Shown: in pieces, positions 1,357 through 58,518 of the stretch
How the letters are laid out: every line of letters begins with the position of its first letter
How positions within the stretch are numbered: position 1 is the first letter of the stretch
DNA from: Desulfobacterium sp.
Lineage (GTDB): Bacteria; Desulfobacterota; Desulfobacteria; Desulfobacterales; Desulfobacteraceae
Reading direction: 5' to 3'
NCBI GenBank assembly: GCA_016342325.1
Contig: JAEINR010000005.1
Coordinates: forward strand, 62,001-126,000
Length of the DNA: 64,000 bases
Notes under the pieces: model-generated
Database searches by the model: none
Seen by the model: only the letters and a program-made list of their open reading frames with translations
What the model was told of the DNA's origin: nothing
Translations under genes and position numbers: made by a program

Positions 1357-1441
1357 TGGTGCCGAAGGGGAGATTTGAACTCCCACGGGTCGCCCCACAC
1401 GCCCCTCAAGCGTGCGTGTCTACCAATTCCACCACTTCGGC
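1357..1441 (-). tRNA. tRNA-Leu (anticodon GAG)
   Basis: An 85-base class II tRNA with a long variable arm. The acceptor stem GCCGAAG/CTTCGGC, D-arm, anticodon stem CACGC/GCGTG with loop TTGAGGG (anticodon GAG), T-arm with GTTCAAATC and an encoded 3' ACCA are all visible. Its layout matches bacterial tRNA-Leu(GAG). Confidence 0.95.
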
Positions 1442-42693: not shown

Positions 42694-43260
42694 ATGACCT
42701 GGCAAGAAAAGCTTAAAAAATTTGTTCTGCACCCCAACTTCATGACCCTGTCAAGGATCGTGGCAACCCCCATCCTTGTGGTCCTTTTGATGTATCCCGG
42801 CAAAGTGACGGCATTTATAGCGGCCCTTGTGTTTTCCGCCGCCGCCATAACCGACTATTTTGACGGCTATCTTGCAAGAAAGTGGGGGCTTGTCTCAAAT
42901 CTGGGTAAAATCCTTGATCCCCTTGCAGACAAGCTCCTGGTCTCATCGGCATTCATCATGCTGGTTGCCCTCGGCTACATGCCCGCCTGGATCGCCTGCG
43001 CCATCATCGGCAGGGAACTTGCCGTCACAGGCCTCAGATGCGTCATAATAGAGAACGGAGAGGATGTGGCAGCCTCATGGCTCGGTAAATACAAAACCGG
43101 CTTCCAGATCGCCTGTATCATTCCCTTGCTCCTTCACTATTCCTATCTAGGCATAAATTTCCACGCCATCGGAACCGTGCTGCTCTATGGAGCCCTTGTT
43201 TTTACCATCTGGTCCGGGGCGGATTACTTCATCAGATTTAGAAAATTAATCACTTTCTAA
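42694..43260 (+). CDS. pgsA: CDP-diacylglycerol-glycerol-3-phosphate 3-phosphatidyltransferase
   Basis: A 188-residue integral membrane enzyme making phosphatidylglycerol phosphate. The N terminus LHPNFMTLSRIVATPILVVLL and the CDP-alcohol phosphatidyltransferase signature D-x2-D-G-x2-A-R-x8-G-x3-D-x3-D (in DYFDGYLARKWGLVSNLG then KILDPLADK) are intact, with four to five helices. It is the last protein gene of the plus-strand housekeeping run, 58 bases before the tRNA cluster. Confidence 0.95.
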   Translation: MTWQEKLKKFVLHPNFMTLSRIVATPILVVLLMYPGKVTAFIAALVFSAAAITDYFDGYLARKWGLVSNLGKILDPLADKLLVSSAFIMLVALGYMPAWIACAIIGRELAVTGLRCVIIENGEDVAASWLGKYKTGFQIACIIPLLLHYSYLGINFHAIGTVLLYGALVFTIWSGADYFIRFRKLITF

Positions 43261-43318
43261 TGATTGATGTTGACAAAGCTAATGGATGGGGGTATAACGC
43301 TCTTGTTTTTAGCACTGA

Positions 43319-43393
43319 GCGGGAATAACTCAGTGGTAGAGTGCGACCTTGCCAAGGTCGAAGTCGCGGGTTCAAATCCCGTTTCCCGCTCCA
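43319..43393 (+). tRNA. tRNA-Gly (GCC), copy 1
   Basis: 75 bases with acceptor GCGGGAA/TTCCCGC, anticodon loop TTGCCAA (anticodon GCC), T-loop TTCAAAT and encoded TCCA. Confidence 0.97.
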
Positions 43394-43399
43394 CCCAAA

Positions 43400-43474
43400 G
43401 GCGGCTTGGCCAAGTGGTAAGGCGACGGCCTGCAAAGCCGTTATTCTCCGGTTCAAATCCGGAAGCCGCCTCCA
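43400..43474 (+). tRNA. tRNA-Cys (GCA), copy 1
   Basis: 75 bases with acceptor GGCGGCT/AGCCGCC, anticodon loop CTGCAAA (anticodon GCA) and encoded TCCA. It starts 6 bases after the tRNA-Gly. Confidence 0.97.
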
Positions 43475-43535
43475 AAAATAAATAAAGACTCTAAAGGGTT
43501 TGAGTAATACTTCAAACCCTTATATGCAGCACTGA

Positions 43536-43610
43536 GCGGGAATAACTCAGTGGTAGAGTGCGACCTTGCCAAGGTCGAAGTCGCGGGTTCAAATCCCGTT
43601 TCCCGCTCCA
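43536..43610 (+). tRNA. tRNA-Gly (GCC), copy 2
   Basis: Identical to copy 1, exactly 217 bases downstream. Confidence 0.97.
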
Positions 43611-43616
43611 CCCAAA

Positions 43617-43691
43617 GGCGGCTTGGCCAAGTGGTAAGGCGACGGCCTGCAAAGCCGTTATTCTCCGGTTCAAATCCGGAAGCCGCCTCCA
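43617..43691 (+). tRNA. tRNA-Cys (GCA), copy 2
   Basis: Identical to the first tRNA-Cys, exactly 217 bases downstream. Confidence 0.97.
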
Positions 43692-43752
43692 AAAATAAAT
43701 AAAGACTCTAAAGGGTTTGAGTAATACTTCAAACCCTTATATGCAGCACTGA

Positions 43753-43827
43753 GCGGGAATAACTCAGTGGTAGAGTGCGACCTTGCCAAGGTCGAAGTCG
43801 CGGGTTCAAATCCCGTTTCCCGCTCCA
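43753..43827 (+). tRNA. tRNA-Gly (GCC), copy 3
   Basis: Identical to copies 1 and 2. The duplication ends one base after its CCA, and accessory DNA begins there, so this tRNA 3' end is a candidate island attachment site. Confidence 0.97.
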
Positions 43828-44158
43828 CTCCCAATGGAACCCCATCTATTTCGTACAAAACCTGCAAACCAACCTTTCTTACTATTCACAAAGCAGACTC
43901 TCCTTATCTTCACCCTTCAAAATTACTATACAATCGTTCCAAATTATCTTATGTCACAGGCTTAAATTCGATACACGGTTTTGAACGTCCAACGTCAGAT
44001 GCGATATCCGAAGGTGAAGAGCCGGCATTGACCAGGATTGAATTGTATGAGAATATGTAAAACGATAATTTGAAACACGGTTGAGCGCAATCGATTTGTT
44101 TTGGCGGATTGATAATACTCAGCCTGGATAACGGAATTACAACAGGAGATAACCCCAT
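43828..44158 (+). other. Gene-free spacer after the tRNA cluster
   Basis: AT-rich DNA with no convincing gene. A frame ending at 44060 reads HGFERPTSDAISEGEEPAL and could be the tail of a lost gene, but I do not recognise it. An AGGAGA site at its right end belongs to yajD. Confidence 0.5.
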
Positions 44159-44536
44159 ATGGCATCAAATACAAATAAAACCAACACAAGCAGGGTTGCG
44201 GAAATGATGCGCAGCCAGAAGGATCGTGAAGGTACGTATCGGGAGCGTGCCCTCAAACTTTACCCCTGGATCTGCGGCCACTGCTGCCGGGAGTTCACCA
44301 GCAAGAATCTCCGCGAGTTGACAGTACACCATAAAGATCACAACCATGATAACAATCCTCCGGACGGCACCAACTGGGAGCTGTTGTGCATCTACTGCCA
44401 CGACAACGAACACTCCCGGGACCAGGTGGCCGATGCCTATGATACAACCTCATCCGCCAAGTCCTCGGATTCGGATTCAGATAACGATTTTACTGATAAT
44501 CCGTTTGCCGGACTGTCCAATTTGATAAAGGATTAA
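44159..44536 (+). CDS. yajD: HNH nuclease family protein YajD
   Basis: A 125-residue HNH protein closely resembling Escherichia coli YajD. YRERALKLYPWICGHCCREF, NLRELTVHHKDHNHDNNPPDG and NWELLCIYCHDNEHS give the zinc-binding CxxC pairs and the HH...N...H nuclease core. The C terminus ends NPFAGLSNLIKD, as in YajD. The cellular role is unknown. It is a free-standing gene with its own AGGAGA ribosome site and no close neighbours. Confidence 0.9.
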   Translation: MASNTNKTNTSRVAEMMRSQKDREGTYRERALKLYPWICGHCCREFTSKNLRELTVHHKDHNHDNNPPDGTNWELLCIYCHDNEHSRDQVADAYDTTSSAKSSDSDSDNDFTDNPFAGLSNLIKD

Positions 44537-44921
44537 TGGCCCGACGTTAGATTCCGCAGGGAGGGGGATGCATAGGCCCGATTACAAAGATTTTACCGGT
44601 GGATTCCCTCTCGCTGCTTCTCGTCTTCTCGTCTTCTCGTCTCTTACCGTATCCTCACTTGAGGGACCCGTCTTATCGGGTGACCACTATAGTCGCCATA
44701 TCATCCATGAACTGCTGGTATCGTTCCGCTTCTATCCGCTAATCAAAGGTCTGGGTGAACACAAAATATTTGTTTTCTTAAGAGCATGGCCGAAGATGAT
44801 CGCCTCGGTGACGTGGTCTTTCTTGAAAAGTCCCTGGAGGCCAAGAGTGGCTTGGGCAGGCCGTCCATGGGGAAGGCGAAAACGATCCTGACTTATAGGG
44901 ATATGAAATATTGGAATCGCT
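44537..44921 (+). other. Spacer with short tandem repeat and a possible small ORF
   Basis: Three copies of the 8-mer TCTCGTCT run from 44619 to 44642. A 55-codon frame, ATG 44786 to TGA 44953, reads MAEDDRLGDVVFLEKSLEAK at its start and has good codon usage, but its ribosome site is weak and it overlaps the next gene. It may be a fragment of an older gene. Base composition drops sharply around 44900. Confidence 0.4.
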
Positions 44922-45989
44922 ATGCTACTTCTTCCTTTAAATACGGTGATTGAACTTATCGGATTCGGGAGTCCCACATCCACTCTATATAAAATGTCCA
45001 ATAGTTCAGAATTTGAATTTAAATTCTCAGAAAGAACTTTTAGTGATGTGCTTAAAGGGAAGAAGAAGCCTTCGAAGGCTTTTATCGATAATTTCAATGA
45101 GTTCTTATCTTATTCTTCAGGAGGAGAGATAATAGATGTTGAATCGTTTATGGACATCGACATTGACCAATACATTTCACCGTGGGTAATCGCAGTAAGT
45201 AGTTGGAGAAAATCTATTAGCGCTGATATGTTTCCATTTACTCAAAAAGAGATTTTACGTATAGCCGAAATTGAACAAAGTATAGTGAATGAATGCAGGC
45301 TCACGGATGATTTTGAATATAGGAATGAAATAATATTCAACAATCCTTTTGTTCAATCTATTTTAAACAAAACAGAATTAAATGATATCCGAAATTCAAA
45401 AAGCTATAATGAATTCGGTAAAGCACTCTTTCTTATTAGTTTAAAAAATTCTTTTTATGTGTTGGCTTGCCTGGAATCAGAATTTATCCGCGCTAATATC
45501 GATCATTTCAAATCAACAGAGTCCCGAATAACTCAGTATTTATTACCGATAAAAAAAAATGGTAAAGTTAAATGTCCTCTTCAGCGCTTATTCGACTATT
45601 GGAGCAAGAAAAATAAGATCTCTTTTACAGCTATGGCTAAAGTGATTAGTGGGAATGTTAAAGAGACAACTACTGATACTGGGAGAATACATAAGCAGAG
45701 GAGGAAATTCATTAAATGGCGGGCAGGAGAACATAATCCTAACTCTAAAGATATAGAAAATATATTGTTAAGTTTCTCTCCTGAAATGAGTGAATCGGAT
45801 TTGGAAATCGGAATGAATATTTACCGGACAGCATTATCTTTAACAAAATTATTTGTCGAATTGGGTAAATTTGGGATGTGCCAAGACACGGATGATTTGA
45901 TTGCTTTTTTCAACAACTATACAGATGTTTATGCTGATGCAAATAAAAAGCTAACCTGCTATTTAAACGATAGCACCGGTCCTGGATAA
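44922..45989 (+). CDS. Unrecognised AT-rich protein with two possible helix-turn-helix segments
   Basis: A 355-residue soluble protein with no family I can name. Two regions look alike and HTH-like: residues about 10-65 (VIELIGFGSPTSTLYKM..., SERTFSDVLKGKKKPSKAF) and about 220-285 (LFDYWSKKNKISFTAMAKVI, then RRKFIKWRAGEHNPNSKDIE). Both combine a possible recognition helix with a lysine-rich basic turn, as in Cro/XRE-type domains. The middle (80-210) is helical. The gene is much more AT-rich than its surroundings, suggesting recent transfer. A regulatory role for the neighbouring defence operon is possible but unsupported. Confidence 0.7.
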   Translation: MLLLPLNTVIELIGFGSPTSTLYKMSNSSEFEFKFSERTFSDVLKGKKKPSKAFIDNFNEFLSYSSGGEIIDVESFMDIDIDQYISPWVIAVSSWRKSISADMFPFTQKEILRIAEIEQSIVNECRLTDDFEYRNEIIFNNPFVQSILNKTELNDIRNSKSYNEFGKALFLISLKNSFYVLACLESEFIRANIDHFKSTESRITQYLLPIKKNGKVKCPLQRLFDYWSKKNKISFTAMAKVISGNVKETTTDTGRIHKQRRKFIKWRAGEHNPNSKDIENILLSFSPEMSESDLEIGMNIYRTALSLTKLFVELGKFGMCQDTDDLIAFFNNYTDVYADANKKLTCYLNDSTGPG

Positions 45990-45994
45990 TGGAT

Positions 45995-46034
45995 GAGAGG
46001 CTGTGATCCACAGATCCGTTGGATCAAGCCTCTC
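45995..46034. terminator. Convergent bidirectional hairpin terminator
   Basis: GAGAGGCT and AGCCTCTC, plus TGATCCA and TGGATCA, form an interrupted stem of about 15 bp around a 7-9 base loop. It lies 6 bases after the AT-rich gene on the plus strand and just past the stop of a small minus-strand ORF, as expected for a shared terminator. Confidence 0.7.
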
Positions 46035-46041
46035 GTTTCAT

Positions 46042-46182
46042 TTATGAACTGTCTCCTATGTATGTGTCATTATTTGGATTGTGGGTGTCTGCCCAATCAT
46101 CCATATCTGCATCGTTGTTGGGGTTATTGATATCAGACCATGTGTCAAGTTCCTCTTGGGTCAAATCTGATGTGTCTACCAT
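46042..46182 (-). CDS. 46-residue acidic small protein
   Basis: A short minus-strand ORF, ATG 46182 to TAA, beginning MVDTSDLTQEELDTWSDINN. It is strongly acidic and holds an internal repeat, NNPNNDADMDDWADT then HNPNNDTYIGDSS. A weak AAGGAAC site lies upstream. It follows a basic 42-residue ORF by 30 bases and ends at a hairpin terminator. The plus-strand frame here is a hydrophobic shadow and is less credible. Function unknown. Confidence 0.5.
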   Translation of the reverse strand: MVDTSDLTQEELDTWSDINNPNNDADMDDWADTHNPNNDTYIGDSS

Positions 46183-46212
46183 TTGTTGTTCCTTATTTTT
46201 TGGGGTTGTTGA

Positions 46213-46341
46213 CTATTTGTTTTCCTCGATTGCCATGAACCTTGTCGTATGTTTTGTTCGTCCCCTTTGTTTGTATTTGTTTGGTCCGCTTTGTGATTTG
46301 CCTGAGTTTTTGTTAAATTCTTTTTGTTGCCCATTGTTCAT
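46213..46341 (-). CDS. 42-residue basic small protein
   Basis: A minus-strand ORF, ATG 46341 to TAG, with a strong AAGGAG site just upstream. It reads MNNGQQKEFNKNSGKSQSGP and continues Lys/Arg-rich (KYKQRGRTKHTTRFMAIEENK). It is basic, while the next ORF is acidic, so the two could bind each other. No homology recognised. Confidence 0.5.
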   Translation of the reverse strand: MNNGQQKEFNKNSGKSQSGPNKYKQRGRTKHTTRFMAIEENK

Positions 46342-46706
46342 CTCCTTATTTAAAATTAACGTTAACCCTCTTTCTTTATAATTGATTTTAAACGTCTACG
46401 GCAGTGCCGTTTTATGGAAAAGTTGATTTTTCTTAAAAAATATTTATTAAAAGATGGAGTGGATGCAAATATCCGTTTTTATATAGAGTTCAGGATTGTC
46501 TTCTTTCTGAAACGACTCGCTTGTTGGCAGAAAACTATTTATCCAGACAAAGAAATTATTTATGGCGCTGAATATAGGCCATTAGATCATAATTTAAATT
46601 GGAATAGACCTTTACAAGCACTATCAATACTGGTAATGGCTCATTTCAAGATCCTTTAGTAGGAAGGTCATTGGAAATTGGGTTGTTCTTGTTGAGGTGA
46701 AAATAG
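46342..46706. other. AT-rich region upstream of the defence operon
   Basis: A short hairpin, ACGGC-AGT-GCCGT followed by TTTTA, at 46398-46414 looks like a small terminator on the plus strand. An 81-codon frame at 46414-46659 has poor composition and no ribosome site, so it is probably not a gene. The promoter of the defence operon should be here, but no clear -35/-10 pair is visible. AGGTGA at about 46695 is the ribosome site of the next gene. Confidence 0.4.
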
Positions 46707-49619
46707 ATGGTTGATAGGCAGATGATTGTGGCACCCGGGGCCCGAATTGAAGTTCGAGATGCGGAATGGCTGGTACGCCGGGTGGATAAGACAGAGACAA
46801 AGGGCCAGGCGCTCCACGTTGTGGGGATGTCCGAGCTTGTGAAAGGCAAGGAGGCGGTTTTTCTCTCCGATGCTGAAGCCAAGACCCAGCATAATATCAA
46901 AGTTCTGGATCCGGCAGATACCAAGCTTGTGATGGACGAATCCCCTGGATTTTCTTCAAGCAGACTGTACGTGGAAAGCCTGCTGAGAAAAACACCTCCC
47001 ACGGATACGAGCCTTTATGTGGGTCATAAGGCGGCCATGGACGTGCTTCCATTTCAGTTGGAACCTGCGGCCCATGCCCTGGAGCAACCCCGCCAGCGGA
47101 TTCTCATAGCCGATGCTGTGGGGCTTGGCAAGACCATTACCTGCGGGATACTTCTTTCGGAGCTGATTCGCAGGGGCAAGGGAAAGCGGATTCTTGTGGT
47201 GGCGGTCAAAAGCCTCTTGACCCAGTTTCAAAAAGAGATGTGGTCCCGGTTTACCATTCCCCTGACCCGGCTTGATTCGATAGGTCTTCAGCGGGTACGG
47301 AATCATATTCCCACCAACCACAATCCGTTCCACTATTTTGATCGTTCCATCATCAGCGTGGATACCCTGAAGCAGGACAACGAGTACCGGGTTTACCTGG
47401 AGAACGCCCATTGGGACATTATTGTGATCGATGAGGCCCACAACGTTGCAGAACGAGGGGAGAATGCCTCCCAAAGGGCAAAGCTTGCCAGACTTCTCGC
47501 CGGTAAATCCGATAGTCTCATCCTTCTTTCTGCCACCCCCCATGACGGCCGGGCAAAGAGTTTCGCTTCCCTCATGAACATGCTGGATCCCACCGCCATT
47601 GCCGATCCCGATGATTACGGTCCCGAGGATATTCGCGGTTTGTTTATCCGACGATTTAAAAAAGATATCCAGAGTCAGGTGGCGGGCAGCTTTAAGGAGC
47701 GGGAGATCCGAAAGATTCCTGTCCCGGCTTCCCTGGAAGAGGAGGAGGCCTTTAAAACCCTTGGGTCCATGATATTTCACAAGCTGGACCAGCACAAGGG
47801 CGGAGGGCGGCTCTTTAGAACCACCCTGGAGAAGTCCCTGTTTTCTTCACCTGCCGCCTGTTTGCAGACCATTGTAAACAGGATTGGAAAACTTGAGAAA
47901 GAGCATGGCCAAGAACATCAAAAAGATCATCCGGATATCCCGGCCCTTGAAGAGCTGTCCCAAAGGGTGGCAGCCATCATCCCTTCCGCCTTTACCAAGT
48001 TCGGCAAGCTCGTTGCGGTGCTCAAGGACAAGAAAAATCCACTCTTTTGGAACGGTAAAGAGACCACCGACCGGCTGGTCGTATTCACCGAAAGGGTGGA
48101 GACCCTCAAGTTTTTGAAAGAACACCTGCCCAAGGCGTTGAAACTGAAAAACAACCAGGTCGCAACCCTCATGGGAACCGATAGCGATCAGGATCAGCAG
48201 CGGGTGGTGGAGGAGTTTGGTAAAGATTCCTCCACTGTGAGGCTTCTTATTGCCACGGATGTGGCGTCGGAAGGCATCAACCTTCATTACCTGTCCCACC
48301 GTATGATCCATTTTGATATTCCCTGGTCCCTCATGGTGTTCCAGCAGCGGAACGGCCGAATCGACCGCTACGGCCAGGAGTTCACCCCCCAGATCACCTA
48401 TCTTGCGACCCAGAGCGAGGACGCAAAGATCAGGGGCGATTTCCGCATCCTGGATCTTCTGATCGAAAAGGATGAAGAGGCCCAGAGGAACATTGGAGAT
48501 CCCTCAGTCTTTATGGGTGTTTTTGATGAGACCCTGGAGGAGGCAATCACTGCCCGGGCCATGGAAAGCGGTCTCTCTCCTGAGTCCTTTGAAGAGACCA
48601 TGGAAAAGAAGAGAAAAGAGATCCCCGGGGGACTCTTTGCCGAGGGCTTTGATCTCAATGCCCTTTGCTTTGACCAAGACGATTCTTCTGCAAAAGAGGT
48701 GAAACCAGCGGTTACAAAGGCATCCATGCCCTCCCTTTATACCGACGATTTCCATTATGCCCGAAGCGCTCTCTCCATTGCATCTAAAAATGGCGTTACA
48801 AGTCAAGTGGACGCAGACCTTCGTCTCATAACAATAGATGCAACCGACGATCTTCTATACCGTTTCCGCTTGCTTCCCAGGGAGATGCGCCCAAAGGACA
48901 ATCGCTTTTTGCTGACGGACCAGACCGATCTGATCCAGAAAGAGATTGCCAGGGCCAGAAAAGAGGAACATGCCTGGCCGAAGGTCCAATATCTGTGGGA
49001 ACTTCACCCGGTGATGGAGTGGCTCTCGGACAAGGTGTTGGCCGGGGTCGGACGCCACGAAGCTCCGGTGATCAACCTTGAAACAGGCCTCACCCCCGGG
49101 GAGACCCTTTATCTTCTTTCAGGACTGATTCCCAACCGCAAAGGCCATCCCCTTATCCAGCACTGGTTCGGGATCTCCTTACAAAAAGAGACAGGCGCTC
49201 TTGGGGCCGAAGATTTCAGTTTCAAGTCCACCCGCCAGCTGGAGGAGATTTTAACCGCAACAGGATTTGGGCGAAAAGAGATTCCCAACCCGGGAAAGGC
49301 TTTGGACCTTACATCCCTCCAGAAAAATCTGAAACAGGTGGTTGACAGGGCAAATGGAGTGATGAAAGCAAGAAGGCAGGCCTTTGGAAAGGATATGGGG
49401 CCGAAACTTGAAGAGCATCTCAATCGATTACGCAATCTTGAAAAGCGCCATAAACAGCGTATCCAAAGGGTCTTTGGTCCTGCCACTCCGGAAAAACTGG
49501 GAGAAAAGCTTAGGGATGTGGAATCCACCTTTTCAGAATACACCACCTGGGTGGAAGAGACCCTTGAGACCGAGGATGCCCCTTATATTAAGGTGGTTGC
49601 CGTGTTTACCAGAGAATAG
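46707..49619 (+). CDS. SNF2-type helicase, DrmD-like
   Basis: A 970-residue SF2 translocase. N-terminal 130 residues with an SH3/Tudor-like start (VAPGARIEVRDAEWLVRRVD). Walker A ADAVGLGKT at about 135-143, DEAH at 242-245 and SAT at 275-277. A helicase C domain has LIATDVASEGINLHYLSHRM and QQRNGRIDRYGQ at about 515-560. A helical C-terminal region of about 350 residues follows. This architecture and size match DrmD, the SNF2 helicase of class 1 DISARM, and the next gene is a DrmMI-like methylase. It could also be the helicase of another methylase-linked defence system. First gene of the operon; methylase starts 9 bases later. Confidence 0.85.
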   Translation: MVDRQMIVAPGARIEVRDAEWLVRRVDKTETKGQALHVVGMSELVKGKEAVFLSDAEAKTQHNIKVLDPADTKLVMDESPGFSSSRLYVESLLRKTPPTDTSLYVGHKAAMDVLPFQLEPAAHALEQPRQRILIADAVGLGKTITCGILLSELIRRGKGKRILVVAVKSLLTQFQKEMWSRFTIPLTRLDSIGLQRVRNHIPTNHNPFHYFDRSIISVDTLKQDNEYRVYLENAHWDIIVIDEAHNVAERGENASQRAKLARLLAGKSDSLILLSATPHDGRAKSFASLMNMLDPTAIADPDDYGPEDIRGLFIRRFKKDIQSQVAGSFKEREIRKIPVPASLEEEEAFKTLGSMIFHKLDQHKGGGRLFRTTLEKSLFSSPAACLQTIVNRIGKLEKEHGQEHQKDHPDIPALEELSQRVAAIIPSAFTKFGKLVAVLKDKKNPLFWNGKETTDRLVVFTERVETLKFLKEHLPKALKLKNNQVATLMGTDSDQDQQRVVEEFGKDSSTVRLLIATDVASEGINLHYLSHRMIHFDIPWSLMVFQQRNGRIDRYGQEFTPQITYLATQSEDAKIRGDFRILDLLIEKDEEAQRNIGDPSVFMGVFDETLEEAITARAMESGLSPESFEETMEKKRKEIPGGLFAEGFDLNALCFDQDDSSAKEVKPAVTKASMPSLYTDDFHYARSALSIASKNGVTSQVDADLRLITIDATDDLLYRFRLLPREMRPKDNRFLLTDQTDLIQKEIARARKEEHAWPKVQYLWELHPVMEWLSDKVLAGVGRHEAPVINLETGLTPGETLYLLSGLIPNRKGHPLIQHWFGISLQKETGALGAEDFSFKSTRQLEEILTATGFGRKEIPNPGKALDLTSLQKNLKQVVDRANGVMKARRQAFGKDMGPKLEEHLNRLRNLEKRHKQRIQRVFGPATPEKLGEKLRDVESTFSEYTTWVEETLETEDAPYIKVVAVFTRE

Positions 49620-49628
49620 GATACCACC

Positions 49629-52600
49629 ATGGATTTGACAGGAATAACCAACGAGAACGAATACTACAGCCACCACTACATCTCCGCCATCCTTGAAGGG
49701 GACCTGAAGGAACTTTTTAAAAACTGGAACATCCTTGAAAAAGAGGAGGGGCAAAAATCACCTCCCACCCTTTTGAAACAGGCGGCAAGCGCCTATTTCT
49801 CCTTACGTAAAAAAAAGGGTGAAGAGCAGGGGATTATCCGAAAAGAACTCCAGGAGCTGGTGCTCACAGCCCTTGGGTTTTCTTGCACCCGGGTTTGCCG
49901 GGAGCTTGAATCCGGCGGCACCATCTCCCTGCTTTGTGAGGTGCAAAAAAAAAGCGGTGCCCCCATGCTCTGGGTCATGGAAGCTGTGGACCCCCTTGCC
50001 GAAGCCACAGACCCTTTGACTCTCTTTCCCCACAAGGGGCTTCTCTCAGCCCCTGACCTGTACAAAGGGGAGACCCTTGAATCCCTTCTCACAAGGGAGA
50101 TCTTTGCCCGGCCTGAACCGCCCCGGTTTGTTATTATGCTCTCCATGGACCAGCTGGTGCTCATCGACCGCACAAAGTGGAACAGCAAACGATTCCTGCG
50201 GTTCGATCTTGCCGAGATCTTCAGCCGGAAAGAAACCTCCACACTCAAGGCCATGGCAGCCCTCATCCACCGGGATTCCCTTGTTCCTGAAAACGGCCTG
50301 GCCCTCCTTGACACCCTGGACGAGAACGCCCATAAACACGCATTTGGGGTGTCTGAAGACCTGAAATACGCCCTCAGGGAATCCATCGAACTCCTGGGCA
50401 ACGAAGCGGTTTACTACATGATGGAAGTTCAAAAAACAGGGGTCTTCAAGGGCCGTCTGGATGAGAATCAGCTCTCCCTTGAGTGCCTGCGCTACATGTA
50501 CCGGCTCCTCTTTCTCTTTTACATAGAAGCCCGTCCGGAGCTTGGGTTTGTGCCGGTAAAGAGTCACGCCTACCAGAGCGGTTACAGTCTTGAGTCATTA
50601 AGAGATCTTGAGATGATCCAGCTTTCCACGGAAGAGTCCCAGAACGGCACCTACTTCCATGAAACCCTCTCCCTTCTCTTTTCCATGATCTGGGAGGGTT
50701 TTTGCCCCACATCTCCCAGGGGGGAAACACCCCCCCGCATCCATACCTTTGAGATCGCCCCCTTAAAGGCCCATCTTTTTGATCCTGCTCGTCTGTCCCT
50801 GCTTTCCAAGGTGAAATTTAGAAACCATGTGCTCCAGAAGGTGATCCAAAACATGTCACTTTCCAGGGAGAAGAAGGGGAAACAAAACCGCCGGGGCCGC
50901 ATCAGCTATGCCCAGCTCGGCATCAACCAGTTGGGAGCGGTCTACGAGGCCCTGCTCTGTTACCGTGGCTTCTTTGCCCAGGAAGAACTCTATGAGGTAA
51001 AACCTGTCAAGGACAACTCGGACGAGCTTGGAACCGCCTACTTTGTAAAAAAAGAGGACCTGGACAAGTACACCGAGGCGGAAAAGCGTTTTGATGAAGA
51101 GACAGGCCTCCTTGTCTGTCATCCAAAGGGAAAGTTCATCTACCGCATGGCAGGCAGGGACAGGGAAAAATCAGCCTCCTACTACACCCCTGAAGTGCTC
51201 ACCCGCTGCCTTGTCAAGTATGCCTTAAAGGAGCTGCTCCAGGACAAAAGCGCCGATGACATCCTCAATCTCAAGATCTGCGAGCCTGCCATGGGGTCGG
51301 CCGCCTTTTTGAACGAGGCCGTTAACCAGCTTTCCGACGCCTACATGGACAAAAAGCAGACAGAGCGTCAAGAACGCCTGTCAGCCGCCGAATACGCCCA
51401 GGAAAGCCAGAATGTGAAGCTTTTTATTGCCGACAACAACTGCTTCGGCATTGACATGAACCCCGTGGCAGTGGAGCTTGCCGAGGTGAGTCTCTGGCTC
51501 AATGTCATTGCCGACGGTGCCCACGTGCCTTGGTTCGGCAATCAGATCATCTGCGGCAACTCCCTCATCGGTGCCCGCAGGCAGACCTTTAAGTCAGATC
51601 TTTTGCGAAGGGGCAAGAAAGGCGATCCCGTCTGGCTCACCTCTGTGCCGGAGAGGGTGATGCCCGGCACCCCAAGGCCCCAAGGATCGATCTACCATTT
51701 TCTCCTTCCTGACAAGGGCATGACAGATTACACGGACAAGGCCGTTAAATCCCTTGTCCCAAAAAAGATTGCAGCCGTCAAACAATGGAAAAAGGAGTTT
51801 ATCAAACCCTTTTCCCCAGGAGAGATCAACCAGCTTGAGAAGCTCTCTGAAGCCGTGGACAACCTTTATGACGAACACGTTAAAAAATCCCGTGAGCTGA
51901 GACAGCTGACCCGGGATCCCATGGCCATTTATGGCCAGCCTCCGGAAAAAGGCCATGCCACCAGCGTCCAGCAAAAAGACCGGCTCTTCGACGCGGAGCA
52001 GCTCTCCCAGGGACTTCGAAGATCCACCCCCTACAAACGCCTCAAGCTTGCCATGGATTATTGGTGCGCCCTCTGGTTCTGGCCCCTGGAAAAGGAAGAT
52101 CTCCTTCCCACCCGGGACGAAGCCATCAACGATATGATGAATATCCTTTTGGGTGGAGTATTCGAAACGGTTCCAGGCGTCCAGCTTCTCCTGGATCTTG
52201 ATATGCCCGAGGAGGAAAAGAAGCCCGTACAGCAGGAGCTTCCCTTCAACACCGACCTGGGGCTTGTGAACGTGGATGATCTCACCCGCAACTTCCCCCG
52301 ACTTGAAGAGGTGGCAAAAATTGCAGAACGCCAGCGGTTCCTCCACTGGGAGCTTGAGTTTGCCGACATCTTCCAAGACCACGGGGGCTTTGATCTCATG
52401 CTCGGGAACCCACCCTGGCTTAAGGTGGAGTGGAACGAGGGCGGCATCCTGGGTGACAAGGAGCCGGAACTTGTCCTGAGAAAAGTCTCCGCATCCAATC
52501 TTGCCAAGCTCAGGGAAGAGACCATTAAAAAATACGATCTTCTTTCAGACTATCTGGCAGAGTACCAAGGCGCTGAAGGAACCCAGGCCTTTCTCAATGC

Positions 52601-54353
52601 CCTCCAGAACTACCCCATGCTCAAGGGAATCCAGACTAATCTCTATAAATGCTTTCTTCCCCAGGCGTGGATGTGGGGAACAGGGGTTTCAGCTTTTCTC
52701 CACCCGGAAGGGATTTATGATGATTCAAAGGGGGGAGGTTTAAGGCAGGAGATTTATCCCAGGCTGAGGGCACATTTTCAGTTTCATAATGAATTATTGC
52801 TGTTCCCGATCGGAAATACACGAAAATATAGTATTAATATATTTTCAAATATTCAAAAGGATATCGTTTTCAAAAACATTTCTAATCTTGTTCATCCCAA
52901 GACTATTGATGAAAGTTATTCAAATGATGCTTCCCGGTTTGTTCCAGGAATAAAAAATGATAAGGATCAATGGAGCATAGAAGGACATCCTCATCGGATC
53001 ATAGAAGTAACAGAAGTCGAATTGAAACTTTTTGCTTCCCTCTATGATGTCGCTGGTACTCCTTCCAACGCTGCCCGTCTCCCAGCTATTCATGCAGAGG
53101 AATTACTTGGCGTTCTGGATAAATTTGCGGCGCAGCCTAAGCGATTGGGGGATTTTAAAGGGGAGTACCTATCCCTTGAAATGTGGCATGAAACCAATGC
53201 TCAGAAAGATGGGACCATTCGCCGTGACACCCGTTTCCCAGACCGTCCATCGGAGTGGGTTCTTTCCGGGCCCCATTTCTTTGTAGGGAATCCATTCTTT
53301 CAAACACCACGAGCCATATGTAAAACTCACAGGGCTTATGATAACCTCGACCTATCAGCTCTTCCGGATGATTATCTGCCCCGCACAAACTATGTTCCGG
53401 CCTGTGATTCCGGGGTGTATTTGGAGCGGACACCCAAAGTGCCATGGGAGGAGAACCGACCGGTTACGGATTTTTATCGTTTTTGTGCACGAGGAATGTT
53501 ATCCCAAAGTGGAGAGAGAACTTTGATTTGTAGTCTTCTTCCGACTGGTTCAGGTCATATTCATGGAGTTCAATCAACAGTCTTTAAGGATAATAGTCTG
53601 TTGTTATATACACATACTTTTAGTTGCAGCCTTCTTGCAGATTTTTTTATCAAATCAACAGGTAATGCCAATTTGCATTTTCTTTGGCATTCATTTCCAC
53701 TTATAACGATTGATAATCGCATTTTGTTGAGAGGACTTGTTTTGAGTTGTTTGTCGTCTCATTATAGTTCTCTTTGGCGAGAGGCTTGGTGCTCAAAAAA
53801 TATAAATGAAACATGGACTAAAAACGATCCGCGACTTTCCGACGGCTTTTTTTCCAACCTCACTCCAGAATGGCACCGTGACTGTGCTCTGCGCACCGAT
53901 TATGCCCGGCGGCAGGCACTGGTTGAGATCGATGTGCTGGTATCTATGGCCCTGGGACTAACCCTGGAGGAGCTAAAGACCATTTATCGCATTCAGTTTC
54001 CTGTGATGCGCCAGTACGAGGCAGATACCTGGTACGACGCCAACGGTCGGATTGTCTTCACCAACTCCAAGGGACTCACCGGAGTGGGGCTTCCAAGAAA
54101 AGCCAATAAAAAGGACGCTGCCTACGGAATCGACACCCCGGACAGACAAGAGTCGGGTATCCCCCTGGGCTGGGAGGATATCAAGGAGTTAAAGGCGGGA
54201 ACCGTGACCAAGACTTTCATGGACGATACCCTTCCCGGCGGTCCTGTTGAGCGGACCATCGCCTATGTGGCCCCCTTTGACCGGTGCAACCGGGAGGAGG
54301 ATTATGAGATCGCATGGGCCGCATTTAAAGCAAGAGATGGGGAAGCAAAATAA
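49629..54353 (+). CDS. Large N6-adenine DNA methyltransferase, DrmMI/Eco57I-like
   Basis: A 1574-residue class gamma-type adenine methylase. A long N-terminal region (1-500) is followed by SAM-binding motif I, ICEPAMGSAAFLNEAV (about 550-565), FGIDMNPVAVELAEVSLWLNVI, and the catalytic NPPW at residues 927-930 (LMLGNPPWLKVEW). The probable target-recognition part, about 1050-1400, is markedly AT-rich in DNA (52790-53010 and 53480-53830), unlike the rest. No separate nuclease motif is obvious. The size and SNF2 partner match class 1 DISARM, where the methylase marks self DNA. PglX-like or Eco57I-type alternatives are possible. Confidence 0.87.
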   Translation: MDLTGITNENEYYSHHYISAILEGDLKELFKNWNILEKEEGQKSPPTLLKQAASAYFSLRKKKGEEQGIIRKELQELVLTALGFSCTRVCRELESGGTISLLCEVQKKSGAPMLWVMEAVDPLAEATDPLTLFPHKGLLSAPDLYKGETLESLLTREIFARPEPPRFVIMLSMDQLVLIDRTKWNSKRFLRFDLAEIFSRKETSTLKAMAALIHRDSLVPENGLALLDTLDENAHKHAFGVSEDLKYALRESIELLGNEAVYYMMEVQKTGVFKGRLDENQLSLECLRYMYRLLFLFYIEARPELGFVPVKSHAYQSGYSLESLRDLEMIQLSTEESQNGTYFHETLSLLFSMIWEGFCPTSPRGETPPRIHTFEIAPLKAHLFDPARLSLLSKVKFRNHVLQKVIQNMSLSREKKGKQNRRGRISYAQLGINQLGAVYEALLCYRGFFAQEELYEVKPVKDNSDELGTAYFVKKEDLDKYTEAEKRFDEETGLLVCHPKGKFIYRMAGRDREKSASYYTPEVLTRCLVKYALKELLQDKSADDILNLKICEPAMGSAAFLNEAVNQLSDAYMDKKQTERQERLSAAEYAQESQNVKLFIADNNCFGIDMNPVAVELAEVSLWLNVIADGAHVPWFGNQIICGNSLIGARRQTFKSDLLRRGKKGDPVWLTSVPERVMPGTPRPQGSIYHFLLPDKGMTDYTDKAVKSLVPKKIAAVKQWKKEFIKPFSPGEINQLEKLSEAVDNLYDEHVKKSRELRQLTRDPMAIYGQPPEKGHATSVQQKDRLFDAEQLSQGLRRSTPYKRLKLAMDYWCALWFWPLEKEDLLPTRDEAINDMMNILLGGVFETVPGVQLLLDLDMPEEEKKPVQQELPFNTDLGLVNVDDLTRNFPRLEEVAKIAERQRFLHWELEFADIFQDHGGFDLMLGNPPWLKVEWNEGGILGDKEPELVLRKVSASNLAKLREETIKKYDLLSDYLAEYQGAEGTQAFLNALQNYPMLKGIQTNLYKCFLPQAWMWGTGVSAFLHPEGIYDDSKGGGLRQEIYPRLRAHFQFHNELLLFPIGNTRKYSINIFSNIQKDIVFKNISNLVHPKTIDESYSNDASRFVPGIKNDKDQWSIEGHPHRIIEVTEVELKLFASLYDVAGTPSNAARLPAIHAEELLGVLDKFAAQPKRLGDFKGEYLSLEMWHETNAQKDGTIRRDTRFPDRPSEWVLSGPHFFVGNPFFQTPRAICKTHRAYDNLDLSALPDDYLPRTNYVPACDSGVYLERTPKVPWEENRPVTDFYRFCARGMLSQSGERTLICSLLPTGSGHIHGVQSTVFKDNSLLLYTHTFSCSLLADFFIKSTGNANLHFLWHSFPLITIDNRILLRGLVLSCLSSHYSSLWREAWCSKNINETWTKNDPRLSDGFFSNLTPEWHRDCALRTDYARRQALVEIDVLVSMALGLTLEELKTIYRIQFPVMRQYEADTWYDANGRIVFTNSKGLTGVGLPRKANKKDAAYGIDTPDRQESGIPLGWEDIKELKAGTVTKTFMDDTLPGGPVERTIAYVAPFDRCNREEDYEIAWAAFKARDGEAK

Positions 54354-54387
54354 TGGCTTTGGATAAATATACAAGAAGGAAGTTATA

Positions 54388-55047
54388 ATGAACAAAGATA
54401 GATTGTTTGACCATCTTAAAACACAAGAGCACTCAAAGCTGTTAGAACTTTTAAGTTCGGCCTTTGAAGCCATGGATACCTGTCAACGACATGATGTGTT
54501 TGGAAAACTCATCAAAGAGATCCCACCATCCCCGGTTGACGGTGAAGAGTTATTGGGCGATATCGAAGCATTCCATTCAAGCTCCATGGCCGGGTATTAT
54601 TATGAACCATTTAACATCAATTCAAAGAATTTTTCAGACATCCCGGAAGAAACTGAGAAATGGTTCGATGAAATAGGTGACCACCTTGAAGACAGTTCCA
54701 GATTAACAGATCAGGGTGACCATGATATTGCTGTTCAGTGCTTTAAACTGCTCCATGAACTGATAGATAAAATGGAAGACGGTGAAGAAATTGTCTTTGC
54801 CGAAGAGTATGGCACATGGATGATTACCGGTGATGAAAAACGGTTCGTCAATTCATATTTAACTTCGTTATCAGCGATATCTACCCCTGAAGAGTATGCT
54901 GCAGGTTCAATTCCATTAATTAAACGGGATAGCTATGAAAGTTTTCATAATAAGGTATATTCTACAGCCTTGAAGTTAGCTGCCAAAGAACAAAAGGCCC
55001 TCCTGAAAAAGGAAGTAAAAATACAAATGATTAGAACAGGTCTTTAA
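54388..55047 (+). CDS. Acidic 219-residue protein of unknown function in the defence operon
   Basis: A helical acidic protein, start supported by AAGGAAG upstream. It reads MNKDRLFDHLKTQEHSKLLE, then FEAMDTCQRHDVFGKLIKEI, FHSSSMAGYYYEPFNINSKN, FDEIGDHLEDSSRLTDQGDH and MEDGEEIVFAEEYGTWMITG. No signal peptide, membrane helix or catalytic motif is visible. I do not recognise the family. It lies 34 bases after the methylase and about 55 bases before the coupled leader of the SF1 gene, so it is co-transcribed. Its composition is a little more AT-rich than its neighbours. Confidence 0.75.
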   Translation: MNKDRLFDHLKTQEHSKLLELLSSAFEAMDTCQRHDVFGKLIKEIPPSPVDGEELLGDIEAFHSSSMAGYYYEPFNINSKNFSDIPEETEKWFDEIGDHLEDSSRLTDQGDHDIAVQCFKLLHELIDKMEDGEEIVFAEEYGTWMITGDEKRFVNSYLTSLSAISTPEEYAAGSIPLIKRDSYESFHNKVYSTALKLAAKEQKALLKKEVKIQMIRTGL

Positions 55048-55102
55048 TACCCTGGATATAGTTTGTAACTCATATTAATAATCAACTGAAAAGAAAAAGG
55101 CC

Positions 55103-55136
55103 ATGTACCCATCCGTTGTAGTTCAGCAGGTTGAGG
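55103..55136 (+). repeat. Direct repeat, left copy
   Basis: About 34 bases beginning atgtacccatccgttgtag match 58485-58518 with one or two mismatches. A weaker resemblance continues for about 20 bases (ggattttc in both). The two copies flank the SF1 helicase-PLD gene. Confidence 0.9.
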
Positions 55137-55177
55137 AGAATACCTGGGATTTTCCTTTGTCCATGGTGGTTTCATGA
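55103..55177 (+). CDS. 24-codon leader ORF, remnant of the downstream helicase gene start
   Basis: ATG 55103 to TGA 55175 encodes MYPSVVVQQVEENTWDFPLS plus four residues. Its first 11 residues equal the start of the large helicase at 58485 (MYPSVVVQQVE). An AAAAAGG site precedes it. Its TGA overlaps the ATG of the SF1 gene (ATGA), so ribosomes finishing the leader can restart there. It looks like a decayed duplicate that now couples translation. Confidence 0.6.
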   Translation: MYPSVVVQQVEENTWDFPLSMVVS

Positions 55178-58100
55178 TGGAGAGACCATATACTTCGTTC
55201 AAGATTGAAGCTCTGGAGACCCTTGCCAAAGGAAATTGGCACGATTCAGAGGTGCTGTCGATCATTAACCGGGAACTTGGATTTCGAAAGACCCGTAGGG
55301 CCATGGAGCTCAAAGAGCGTATTTCCAAAGAGCTTTTGAAAAGGGAGACAGGCGGTAATTCCGATGATCTGGTGGGCAATTTTATCAAGGCTTTGTCCAT
55401 TGAGATCCAGGCGGCTCAAAAGCAGAGTTTTACCTCAACTGTGGATTTGAGGAATGGAGAGCGGGTGGAGTCCGGCAGCGAAGGGCATATTTACGCCTTT
55501 CCCAACCCGGACGGGTTAAGCCTTCGGGACGATACGCCGGTGGTGCTTGTGACCGGGGGGCAGGAAAAGGATGGAACGCTGGTGTCTGTTTCGGACGAGC
55601 GGATTCTCGTTTTGCTGGCAGAGGACCTGGGAGAATCTTTGGCCTTTGTAAAGCTTCGTACTGACACCACTTTTTTGTTGAAGCGTCTTAAGGAGAGGCT
55701 TCAAACCCTTGGCCGGGGCGAGGGAAAGTTTAATCTTTCCATGATCCGAAAAGGCATGGGGATGGCGCCTTCAACGTCTTTGCCGTCTGGCGTGAATATT
55801 AAAAATGGGGAATTGAACAAGGCCCAGCTCCAGGCGGTCGAGGCCGCCTGTAACCGTGATTTTACTTTTTTATGGGGACCTCCCGGAACGGGCAAGACCG
55901 CCACCATGGCCCGGGTAGTCGAAACTTACTACCGGGCGGGTATGCGGGTGCTCCTTGTCTCCAACACAAACCTGGCAGTGGATGTCCTTCTGGAGAAGCT
56001 GTGCGAGCGCCTGAAAGGGTCGTGTGAAGCGTTTGAAAAAGGGGCGGTGCTTCGGTTTGGCAGGATGGTCAAGGAGGAGTTGAAAGAGCGTTTTGGGGCC
56101 TATGTTGATGTGGGCCTGGCTGTGGAGAGATTGTCCAAGCCCCTTAAAAAGGAGAGGAGCGATCTTCAGCAGGACATTGAACGGCTGGACAAGGAGCATG
56201 AGAATAACAGGCTCTTGATGGCCAAATGGGAAGAGCGTGAGGTCCTGAAGAGGAAGGATTCCCAAATCCGCACCGACCTCCTGGTAATACACGATAAGAT
56301 GTGCAGCATCGACCAGGATCTGCTTGGGGGTAAGGCCAGGCTTTCAGCCCTGCATGATGAATTTGAAAAGGCAAAATCTGCCGGAATGCTGCGCCGTTTA
56401 TTCACCGGCTTGAATCCGGAAAAGATCAAACGGCGGATAGCCGACCAGGAGCTTCAAAATGAGAGTGCTGCAAGGACAATTCTGGAGATTCAGGGCCGTC
56501 AAAAAAATTTACTTGTCAAAGCCAGGGAGCTGGTTCGACAAATTAAAGCTATGAATCGCTCTTTGGACAAGGTTCAACTCCATGTGCTCAAAAGGAAGAT
56601 GGAGGTTTACCCGGAAAAGCGGGTTGCCTTGAAACGTCGTATCCAGGAAATCCACAATGAGTTGGGTCAGATAAGAGAAGAGGTCCTTAAATCCTGCCGG
56701 GTCGTGGCCGCAACTGCCACCCAGACTTTTCTGAAACCCGGATCTTTCAAGTCATTTGACGCTGTGGTGGTGGATGAGGCCTCCATGCTGATTCTTCCTG
56801 CCGTGGGCTATGTGCTGGGGCTTGCAAAAAAAAGAGCTGTGGTGGCCGGAGACTTTCGGCAGCTTCCGCCCATTGTTGTTTCCAAGAAGGATGATACGGT
56901 CAAGGAATGGGTGGGGCAGGATATTTTTTCCAAGGCGGGGATCGACGAAGCTGTGGGCAGGGGAACTCCTCCCGTGGAGCTTGTGCAGCTCACACGGCAA
57001 TATCGCATGGAAGAGAAGATCTGCGATCTCATCAATCTGCTTTTTTATGACGGAAGCCTTGAGACGGACCCTTGCGCCGGTTCCAGGAAAGGGGCCTTGG
57101 GGTATCCGGATTTTTTAGATTCTCCCCTTACCCTGGTAAACACCTCGGCCCAATATCCGTTTGCCAACATCAAGCCCGGAACCTATTCCCGTTATAATGT
57201 ACTCCATGCCGTGGGGGTGAGGAACCTTTGCTGTTATCTCAAAGAAAAAGGGTACGTCTCCGGCATGGAAGACTTTGGTGTGATCACTCCCTATTCGGCC
57301 CAGGCGGATTTTTTGGCAAGTTTGGTCAAGGAAAAGGGTGTGGAAGGTGTGACCTGCGGAACCGTGCATCGGTTCCAGGGCAATGAAAAGGATATCATCC
57401 TGTTTGATACCACGGACGGTTATGGCATGTGGAACCCCGGAATCTTTTTGAAGTCCGGGCATTTAAAGGAAGACGGGGCCAAGCTTTTGAACGTGGCCCT
57501 CAGCCGTGCCAGGAGCCGGTTGGTTGTCTTTGCCAACTGCGACTATCTTAAAGCTAAGCTGCCCCAAGGCGCGTTCCTGCGGAAGGTGATGGGATTCATG
57601 GAGGAACAGGGCAGGGTGATACCCTTGGAATCCATCCTCTCCCTGGGCCCAAATGATCTTGGAGACATTGCCATTCCAGGTATGGAAGGGTTTTCTTTTG
57701 ACCCGTCTAAAACCGGGCTTTTTGATGAAACCACCTTTGATAGAGCCTTTTTGCATGATCTTGGCAATGCAAGAAAGACCGTGGTGATTTTTTCCGGGTT
57801 CTGCACCCCTGCCCGGGTGGGGGTGTGGGCTGACATGTTCCGGCAGAAATTGAACCAGGGCGTCAGGATCCGCATTGTGACAAGACCGCCCCAAAACCAG
57901 GGGACGATACGGGTGGAATCAGTGAACGAAGCCCTCCACTTTTTGGACAAGCTTGGGGTGGTGGTGGATCTTCGATACAGCATCCATGAAAAGATCTGTT
58001 TCATTGATGACGAGGTGCTATGGCACGGATCGCTGAACCCCTTATCCCATACGGGAAGAACCGATGAATCAATGATGCGGATTAAAAGCCGGGAAGCTTG

Positions 58101-58503
58101 CCGCATTACAGCCGAGCATTCCCTTTATCGAAACAGGCCGGGTAAGAAAAACAGTGAAGATTTGATGGATCTTTTGGTTGCCCGGGAAAATCCTGTTTGC
58201 CAGTCCTGTGGCTCACCAACGGTTTTTCATGTCAGGGGGAAACATGGTCCTTATTTTAACTGCCTTTTAAACTGTGGATGGTCTGTTGATTTAAAAAGGG
58301 CGGGTAAACCTGCTCCAAAGGGAGGCGTGGTCCAGGTACCAGGGACTCCTGCATCTGGGAAAACGTGTCCGAAATGCGGATGCCCCATGGTGGTTAGAAA
58401 CGGAAAATTCGGTCAATTTTGGGGGTGCAAGGGGTACCCGGAGTGTAAAAATACAGAGAAATTAAAAATGGAAAGTGATATCACATGTACCCATCCGTTG
58501 TAG
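55174..58503 (+). CDS. SF1 helicase fused to PLD nuclease and zinc ribbons (MkoC-like)
   Basis: A 1109-residue multidomain protein. Residues 1-220 form an N-terminal domain. The SF1 (Dna2/Upf1-like, COG1112 type) helicase has GPPGTGKT at 235-242, a coiled-coil insert about 330-500, DEAS at 534-537, then QLTRQYRMEEK, GTVHRFQGNEKD and NVALSRARSRL. A phospholipase D domain about 840-975 carries one complete HxK(x4)D(x6)GSxN motif (His938, Lys940, Asp945, Asn955). Two zinc ribbons end the protein: CQSCG...CLLNC and a topoisomerase-type CPKCG...CKGYPEC. Helicase plus PLD in one chain recalls Mokosh type II; the PLD recalls DrmC. The C-terminal CTHPL is encoded by the right direct repeat. Confidence 0.88.
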   Translation: MMERPYTSFKIEALETLAKGNWHDSEVLSIINRELGFRKTRRAMELKERISKELLKRETGGNSDDLVGNFIKALSIEIQAAQKQSFTSTVDLRNGERVESGSEGHIYAFPNPDGLSLRDDTPVVLVTGGQEKDGTLVSVSDERILVLLAEDLGESLAFVKLRTDTTFLLKRLKERLQTLGRGEGKFNLSMIRKGMGMAPSTSLPSGVNIKNGELNKAQLQAVEAACNRDFTFLWGPPGTGKTATMARVVETYYRAGMRVLLVSNTNLAVDVLLEKLCERLKGSCEAFEKGAVLRFGRMVKEELKERFGAYVDVGLAVERLSKPLKKERSDLQQDIERLDKEHENNRLLMAKWEEREVLKRKDSQIRTDLLVIHDKMCSIDQDLLGGKARLSALHDEFEKAKSAGMLRRLFTGLNPEKIKRRIADQELQNESAARTILEIQGRQKNLLVKARELVRQIKAMNRSLDKVQLHVLKRKMEVYPEKRVALKRRIQEIHNELGQIREEVLKSCRVVAATATQTFLKPGSFKSFDAVVVDEASMLILPAVGYVLGLAKKRAVVAGDFRQLPPIVVSKKDDTVKEWVGQDIFSKAGIDEAVGRGTPPVELVQLTRQYRMEEKICDLINLLFYDGSLETDPCAGSRKGALGYPDFLDSPLTLVNTSAQYPFANIKPGTYSRYNVLHAVGVRNLCCYLKEKGYVSGMEDFGVITPYSAQADFLASLVKEKGVEGVTCGTVHRFQGNEKDIILFDTTDGYGMWNPGIFLKSGHLKEDGAKLLNVALSRARSRLVVFANCDYLKAKLPQGAFLRKVMGFMEEQGRVIPLESILSLGPNDLGDIAIPGMEGFSFDPSKTGLFDETTFDRAFLHDLGNARKTVVIFSGFCTPARVGVWADMFRQKLNQGVRIRIVTRPPQNQGTIRVESVNEALHFLDKLGVVVDLRYSIHEKICFIDDEVLWHGSLNPLSHTGRTDESMMRIKSREACRITAEHSLYRNRPGKKNSEDLMDLLVARENPVCQSCGSPTVFHVRGKHGPYFNCLLNCGWSVDLKRAGKPAPKGGVVQVPGTPASGKTCPKCGCPMVVRNGKFGQFWGCKGYPECKNTEKLKMESDITCTHPL

Positions 58504-58518
58504 TCCAGCAGGTTGAGC
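58485..58518 (+). repeat. Direct repeat, right copy
   Basis: The partner of 55103-55136. It encodes both the last codons of the SF1 gene and, in another frame, the first codons of the next helicase. Confidence 0.9.

Follow-up and report, generated by a model that had tools for sequence, protein, structure and literature searches.

Five tRNA genes lie in a tandem array behind pgsA in Desulfobacterium sp., and they probably arose by a local and fairly recent tandem duplication of an ancestral pgsA-linked unit that comprised tRNA-Gly(GCC) and tRNA-Cys(GCA) genes. The window, that is, the whole 64,000-nt stretch of DNA that was analysed (C23:62001-126000), comes from a 6.67-Mb draft genome in 205 contigs (G000), which we compared with two congeners, G002 and the two-contig genome G001. 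Features are collected in Table 1.

Structure of the array

Tandem Repeats Finder reports one array (43311-43828; period, 217; copies, 2.4; matches, 100%; indels, 0%; score, 1036), in which the gene order is Gly(GCC)-Cys(GCA)-Gly-Cys-Gly. ARAGORN calls the five tRNA genes, and Rfam agrees on all of them but ends each 3 nt earlier. Units 1 and 2 are the same at every letter, each with 67 nt outside the tRNA genes; the third copy matches them exactly for 84 nt, to 43828, and then diverges. An earlier note had described an exact 217-bp head-to-tail duplication of a Gly/Cys unit with a third tRNA-Gly, identical even in the spacers, and this is borne out to the base. A 26-nt probe from the tRNA-Gly 3′ end, with up to three mismatches allowed, matched the window three times, always in the array, and gave no match in 100 shuffled sequences. 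The repeat is far beyond chance.

Table 1. Features of the array and its surroundings (window coordinates)
Feature	Position	Strand	Basis or remark
pgsA (CDP-alcohol phosphatidyltransferase family), conserved upstream neighbour	42694-43260	+	Pfam PF01066, E 1.2e-43
Probable sigma-70 promoter, TTGACA-17-TATAAC, outside the repeated unit	43270-43298	+	Read directly
Unit 1, 217 bp: leader, tRNA-Gly, tRNA-Cys, hairpin spacer	43311-43527	+	Tandem Repeats Finder
tRNA-Gly(GCC) copy 1, CCA encoded	43319-43393	+	ARAGORN, Rfam
tRNA-Cys(GCA) copy 1, CCA encoded	43400-43474	+	ARAGORN, Rfam
Hairpin of unit 1, -14.1 kcal/mol, z -3.1	43494-43521	+	Probably once a terminator stem; the usual T-run is absent
Unit 2, same as unit 1	43528-43744	+	Tandem Repeats Finder
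tRNA-Gly(GCC) copy 2	43536-43610	+	ARAGORN, Rfam
tRNA-Cys(GCA) copy 2	43617-43691	+	ARAGORN, Rfam
Hairpin of unit 2	43711-43738	+	
Partial unit 3, 84 nt: leader and tRNA-Gly copy 3	43745-43828	+	ARAGORN, Rfam
tRNA-Gly copy 3	43753-43827	+	ARAGORN, Rfam
Non-syntenic right flank: HNH protein, then defence-like cluster that continues past the window as far as a type I Zorya operon	44159-64000	+	

Arrays carried by phages or plasmids hold many different tRNAs; this one has only two types, at a conserved locus behind pgsA, and we rejected that class. Elsewhere in the genome, a tRNA-Leu(GAG) at window 1357-1441 and two other tRNA matches (C186:21798-21879 and C189:28274-28355) have an equal Rfam score (53.7 bits) and are perhaps further duplicates.

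Conservation of the pgsA locus

Relatives of pgsA number at least 577 in genome contigs, and the best 80 loci were kept for a survey of tRNA genes; their labels are mostly Desulfobacterales, Desulfobacteraceae or Deltaproteobacteria, with two Sporosarcina. The nearest (L023) is evidently on the same contig as G002:C48. Among these best 80, tRNA-Gly(GCC) and then tRNA-Cys(GCA) follow pgsA at 57 loci: 51 with the pair within 1.5 kb, four more near a contig end, a locus where the pair occurs twice and another where two tRNA-Ser follow it. Nine loci have tRNA-Gly only (four at contig ends; at L039 the Cys gene falls just past the 1.5-kb limit), and 14 have neither member within 1.5 kb (four at contig ends; at L074 the Gly gene lies further on).

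The same order and anticodons are found in Escherichia coli K-12, as pgsA-glyW-cysT-leuZ. As there, pgsA lies directly upstream in Desulfobacterium, with Gly(GCC) then Cys(GCA) on one strand; the difference is that E. coli adds tRNA-Leu(UAA) and keeps the pair single, whereas here the pair is repeated and no Leu gene follows. A search of E. coli DNA gave 80-90% matches to tRNA-Gly in 5375 of 5426 genomes, with no place covering 80% of the query. Because of the 57 loci and E. coli K-12, the pair behind pgsA is taken to be old, and the single-copy state is most likely ancestral.

Copy number among relatives

Searched with the 217-bp unit, 85 of 86 genomes of the family gave a match, and 72 gave a joined Gly-Cys match; by count of the matches listed, G000 alone has two of these. 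Since many of the 86 genomes are fragmented drafts that can hide repeats, we restricted the search for repeats to genomes of at most six contigs. Exactly one joined match is present in each of the 15 other genomes of this kind, G001 included, so the unit is single copy in these relatives. Each of the 15 has one more near-identical tRNA-Gly elsewhere, and in the one-contig genome G022 the extra tRNA-Gly genes number two, in tandem and 110 bp apart. In the G000 assembly, tRNA-Gly genes of this kind number four (three in the array and one solitary), against two in 14 of the 15 genomes. One unit is seen in G002, whose contig ends there, inside the hairpin behind tRNA-Cys (end of L105, G002:C48:36469). 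Copy number differs between species.

A second case of local duplication of the pair is found in the complete chromosome of Desulfonema magnum 4be13 (L084), where it stands head to tail behind pgsA as Gly-Cys-Gly-Cys with a period of 232 bp; together with the tandem tRNA-Gly alone in G022, this serves as a precedent. In D. magnum the tRNA-bearing stretches are 97% identical and the remaining spacer has diverged, whereas the Desulfobacterium spacers are identical; the first D. magnum hairpin keeps its T-run and there is no third Gly, whereas the Desulfobacterium hairpins have no T-run and a third Gly is present. The D. magnum duplication is an independent event and probably an older one. Two Desulfoluna loci (L068 and L076) also have a second tRNA-Gly/tRNA-Cys pair, about 2.4-2.6 kb downstream of the first. 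This second pair has the same orientation as the first in D. spongiiphila (86% identical over 333 bp) and the opposite one in D. limicola (94% over 339 bp).

Tandem duplication is reported to have changed the tRNA gene set of Pseudomonas fluorescens SBW25, and its authors add that such events may help to explain why genomes carry several identical tRNA copies (PMC7661048). The SBW25 duplications, as given there, are of 45-290 kb segments under laboratory selection, compared with a unit of 217 bp here. Among the papers listed in a literature search, none dealt, by title or abstract opening, with this array or with tRNA-Cys islands in this family.

Promoter, terminator and junction

The probable promoter recurs in G001 and G002 with equal spacing and near-identical hexamers. 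A consensus scan of 43200-44200 returned no promoter, under a rule that demands T at the last -10 position, unlike TATAAC; the same scan, which asks for a T-rich tail, returned one terminator-like site (44078-44093) and none in the spacers.

Behind tRNA-Cys, 24 of the 26 family loci for which 80 nt of downstream sequence were retrieved have a run of at least five T, counted anywhere in nt 16-80 after the gene, whether or not directly after a stem. These loci are the best matches of the locus search and not all 72 genomes with a joined match; of 31 rows tabulated, the two window units (L109) were kept apart and three loci at contig ends (L105, L118 and L134) were dropped. The exceptions are G001 (L103), with four T behind its stem, and L120, with three. 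Scoring the lowest-energy hairpin instead (hairpin, 73/84; T-rich tail, 32/84) is a poor measure, as that hairpin often swallows the T-run. The T-run, usually behind a stem, looks like the normal terminator after tRNA-Cys in the family.

In the G000 spacer, the stem's CCCTT gives way to ATATGC and then to the leader of the following copy. The terminator thus seems to have been severed at the junction, immediately after its stem, with loss of the T-run; for the 6 nt ATATGC, no known source was found. The first copy alone has a recognisable promoter and the inner hairpins have no T-run, and this one promoter most likely reads through the weakened hairpins into all copies, so that the array is probably one read-through transcript.

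Origin and age of the copies

All three tRNA-Gly copies of the array have the 8-nt leader AGCACTGA, while both congeners have AACGCTGA, and the sequence that precedes the solitary tRNA-Gly of G000 is unlike the array leader. Because this leader is common to the three copies and differs from that of the congeners and from the upstream sequence of the solitary gene, the copies derive from the pgsA locus itself, after the split from G002 or with later homogenisation. Copying from the solitary locus was rejected: its upstream sequence differs, and copies 2 and 3 carry the leader of the pgsA locus.

The tRNA parts say little about age, since tRNA sequences barely change in the family (near-full solitary tRNA-Gly matches listed there are 97-100% identical), and the evidence on age comes from the 67 non-tRNA nt of each unit. 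There, units 1 and 2 have no differences, against 17 substitutions at 58 aligned sites plus four gap positions between the unit and that of G002, a count that may be too high as the alignment behind Cys is poor. If both rates of change are equal, the last common state of the copies would lie well inside the time since the split. The earlier note's suggestion that the duplication is very recent or has been kept uniform gains support from this comparison and from the array's own leader.

The junction sequence shows that a join just behind the terminator stem after tRNA-Cys placed a second leader and tRNA-Gly there. With direct tRNA-Gly copies then 217 bp apart, unequal homologous recombination or replication slippage could add or drop Cys-Gly units. 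The copies encode identical tRNAs, and most likely provide redundant extra dosage. One observation goes against a simple duplication: the array ends in tRNA-Gly and not in Cys with the ancestral right flank, so that a further event must have shaped its right end, one for which we found no mechanism.

Assembly and copy number

The earlier note warned that the array could be collapsed or expanded in the assembly, a justified worry, as two further contigs of this 205-contig draft end in the same 78-bp core of tRNA-Gly. One (C186) starts at unit position 7 and the other (C194) stops at position 82, so that suffix and prefix overlap by 76 nt, and the stretch common to all contexts is 78 nt (unit positions 6 to 83). 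Both ends fit a graph with k=77, a value we infer from them. The number of turns around the 217-bp loop was probably the assembler's choice, and the true number of units may differ from 2.4, with Gly-Cys-Gly as the minimum.

It is accordingly a serious possibility, if short of an even one, that the array is an artefact in number, with the true Cys-Gly turns one or more than two and two chosen by the assembler from coverage or read pairs. The contig ends in the 78-bp core fit such a miscount, as does an exact period of 217 bp that exceeds 77, and the contamination of the draft (4.36%, CheckM-like) would allow a mixture of strains. However, contamination values are similar in the two congeners (4 and 3), and the contig crosses the whole array and reaches unique sequence at either end, a hint that read pairs supported it. 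The earlier note held that a different copy number in long reads would make the duplication an artefact. This does not follow, since a wrong count would not in itself undo the duplication: only 61 nt separate tRNA-Cys from the tRNA-Gly after it, a distance that single reads should span. The junctions of the array are probably real at read level, because they are short enough to fit one k-mer.

Apparent islands at tRNA genes

An alternative to local duplication is that the extra copies came with an island integrated site-specifically at a tRNA 3′ end, its left end being the third tRNA-Gly. Two features favour this: the right flank, which is non-syntenic, has many defence-like genes, and in six relatives the adjacent tRNA-Cys seems to serve as a site of island integration. 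These six of the 15 relatives (G014, G016, G027, G028, G030 and G031, all of genus g4; loci L141-L153) have seven tRNA-Cys fragments in all (50-59 nt, 93-97% identical, all ending at the last base), which lie 41-198 kb downstream from the intact gene; each fragment has a tyrosine integrase gene within about 0.3 kb. These seven integrases are 85-91% identical to the query from G028 (or are that query), none this close occurs in the other 11 of the 17 genomes searched, and matches of 36-38% were found in G025, G029 and G058 and a second time in G016. The fragments and integrases of g4 look like the marks of islands of about 41-140 kb integrated at the 3′ end of the pgsA-linked tRNA-Cys, with two apparent islands in a row in G016.

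We nevertheless consider an island origin of the array unlikely. The assembled G000 has no partial tRNA-Gly or tRNA-Cys elsewhere at E 0.001, so no attR (a 3′ tRNA fragment) was found there for the far end of the right flank, an end that may lie beyond C23; no 14-mer is shared with the remaining window or with C23 up to the contig end. Of 13 PF00589 matches in G000, one is on C23 and is upstream of the array; none lies downstream of it, C23 having been covered to the contig end. Searches at 1e-30 for the integrase family of the tRNA-Cys islands gave nothing in G000, G001 or G002. As G000 has neither such a fragment nor such a match, we take the tRNA-Cys islands as context for the array and not as its origin.

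The right flank

A wrong join in the assembly, by which pgsA and the array would really continue into C186 while the solitary locus joined the defence region, is very unlikely. The same 78-bp stretch is indeed common to all these paths, but G001 and G002 each have a solitary tRNA-Gly whose two sides are collinear with C194 and C186, and these two contigs therefore belong together; by elimination, the pgsA-linked array should lead to the HNH side.

The first gene on that side encodes an HNH protein (PF01844) with a weak PADLOC match to ZorE (8e-7). It is followed by genes for a 355-aa protein without a Pfam or PADLOC match, an SNF2 helicase (best PADLOC match, DrmD), a type IIG-like restriction-methyltransferase (from the PADLOC scan only), a 219-aa protein without a match, a PLD/AAA helicase and a DruE-like helicase of 2101 aa that starts inside the window. 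Beyond the window come a UvrD-like helicase and a type I Zorya operon, ZorA-ZorB-ZorC-ZorD (L137:11039-18949). The defence-like cluster extends over window 44159-64000 and L137 1-18949. Near the start of the flank, about 230 bp (window 44645-44877) have counterparts of about 69% similarity at other places in G001 and G002.

Relatives of the HNH gene are present in five of eight genomes searched, G000 included; in G001 the relative is at another place, and G002 has none. The flank at this position in G001 differs: as DNA, its 6.1 kb gave only two matches of 44-45 nt in G000 and none in G002 (40/47 and 40/42 first-look candidates scored). Because it differs from the flank in G000 and is absent at the DNA level from G000 and G002, the right side of the pgsA-linked tRNA locus is considered variable.

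The neighbourhood also invites a more elaborate reading, to which we attach scarcely any credence, in which the array, next to a defence island, acts as a labile device for tRNA dosage. The direct tRNA-Gly repeats would recombine and so change the number of Gly and Cys genes, the extra copies would buffer tRNA damage by the cell's own or phage nucleases, and, as the hairpins have no T-run, transcription from a single promoter would cover all copies and continue in the direction of the island. Its basis is the neighbourhood alone. Phage homing endonucleases are reported to amplify anti-defence genes where Septu cleaves tRNA-Tyr (PMC13096335), a case which shows that tRNA damage and gene amplification can meet.

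Significance

The array is an ordinary recent local duplication of a conserved tRNA unit. Its significance is small: the widely conserved pgsA-Gly-Cys neighbourhood can duplicate locally, and the array gives a readable junction in which a terminator stem is joined to the next leader. It also illustrates that a draft assembly can report such an array without proving its length. Of broader use is the observation that, in this family, large islands seem to have inserted repeatedly at the pgsA-linked tRNA-Cys.
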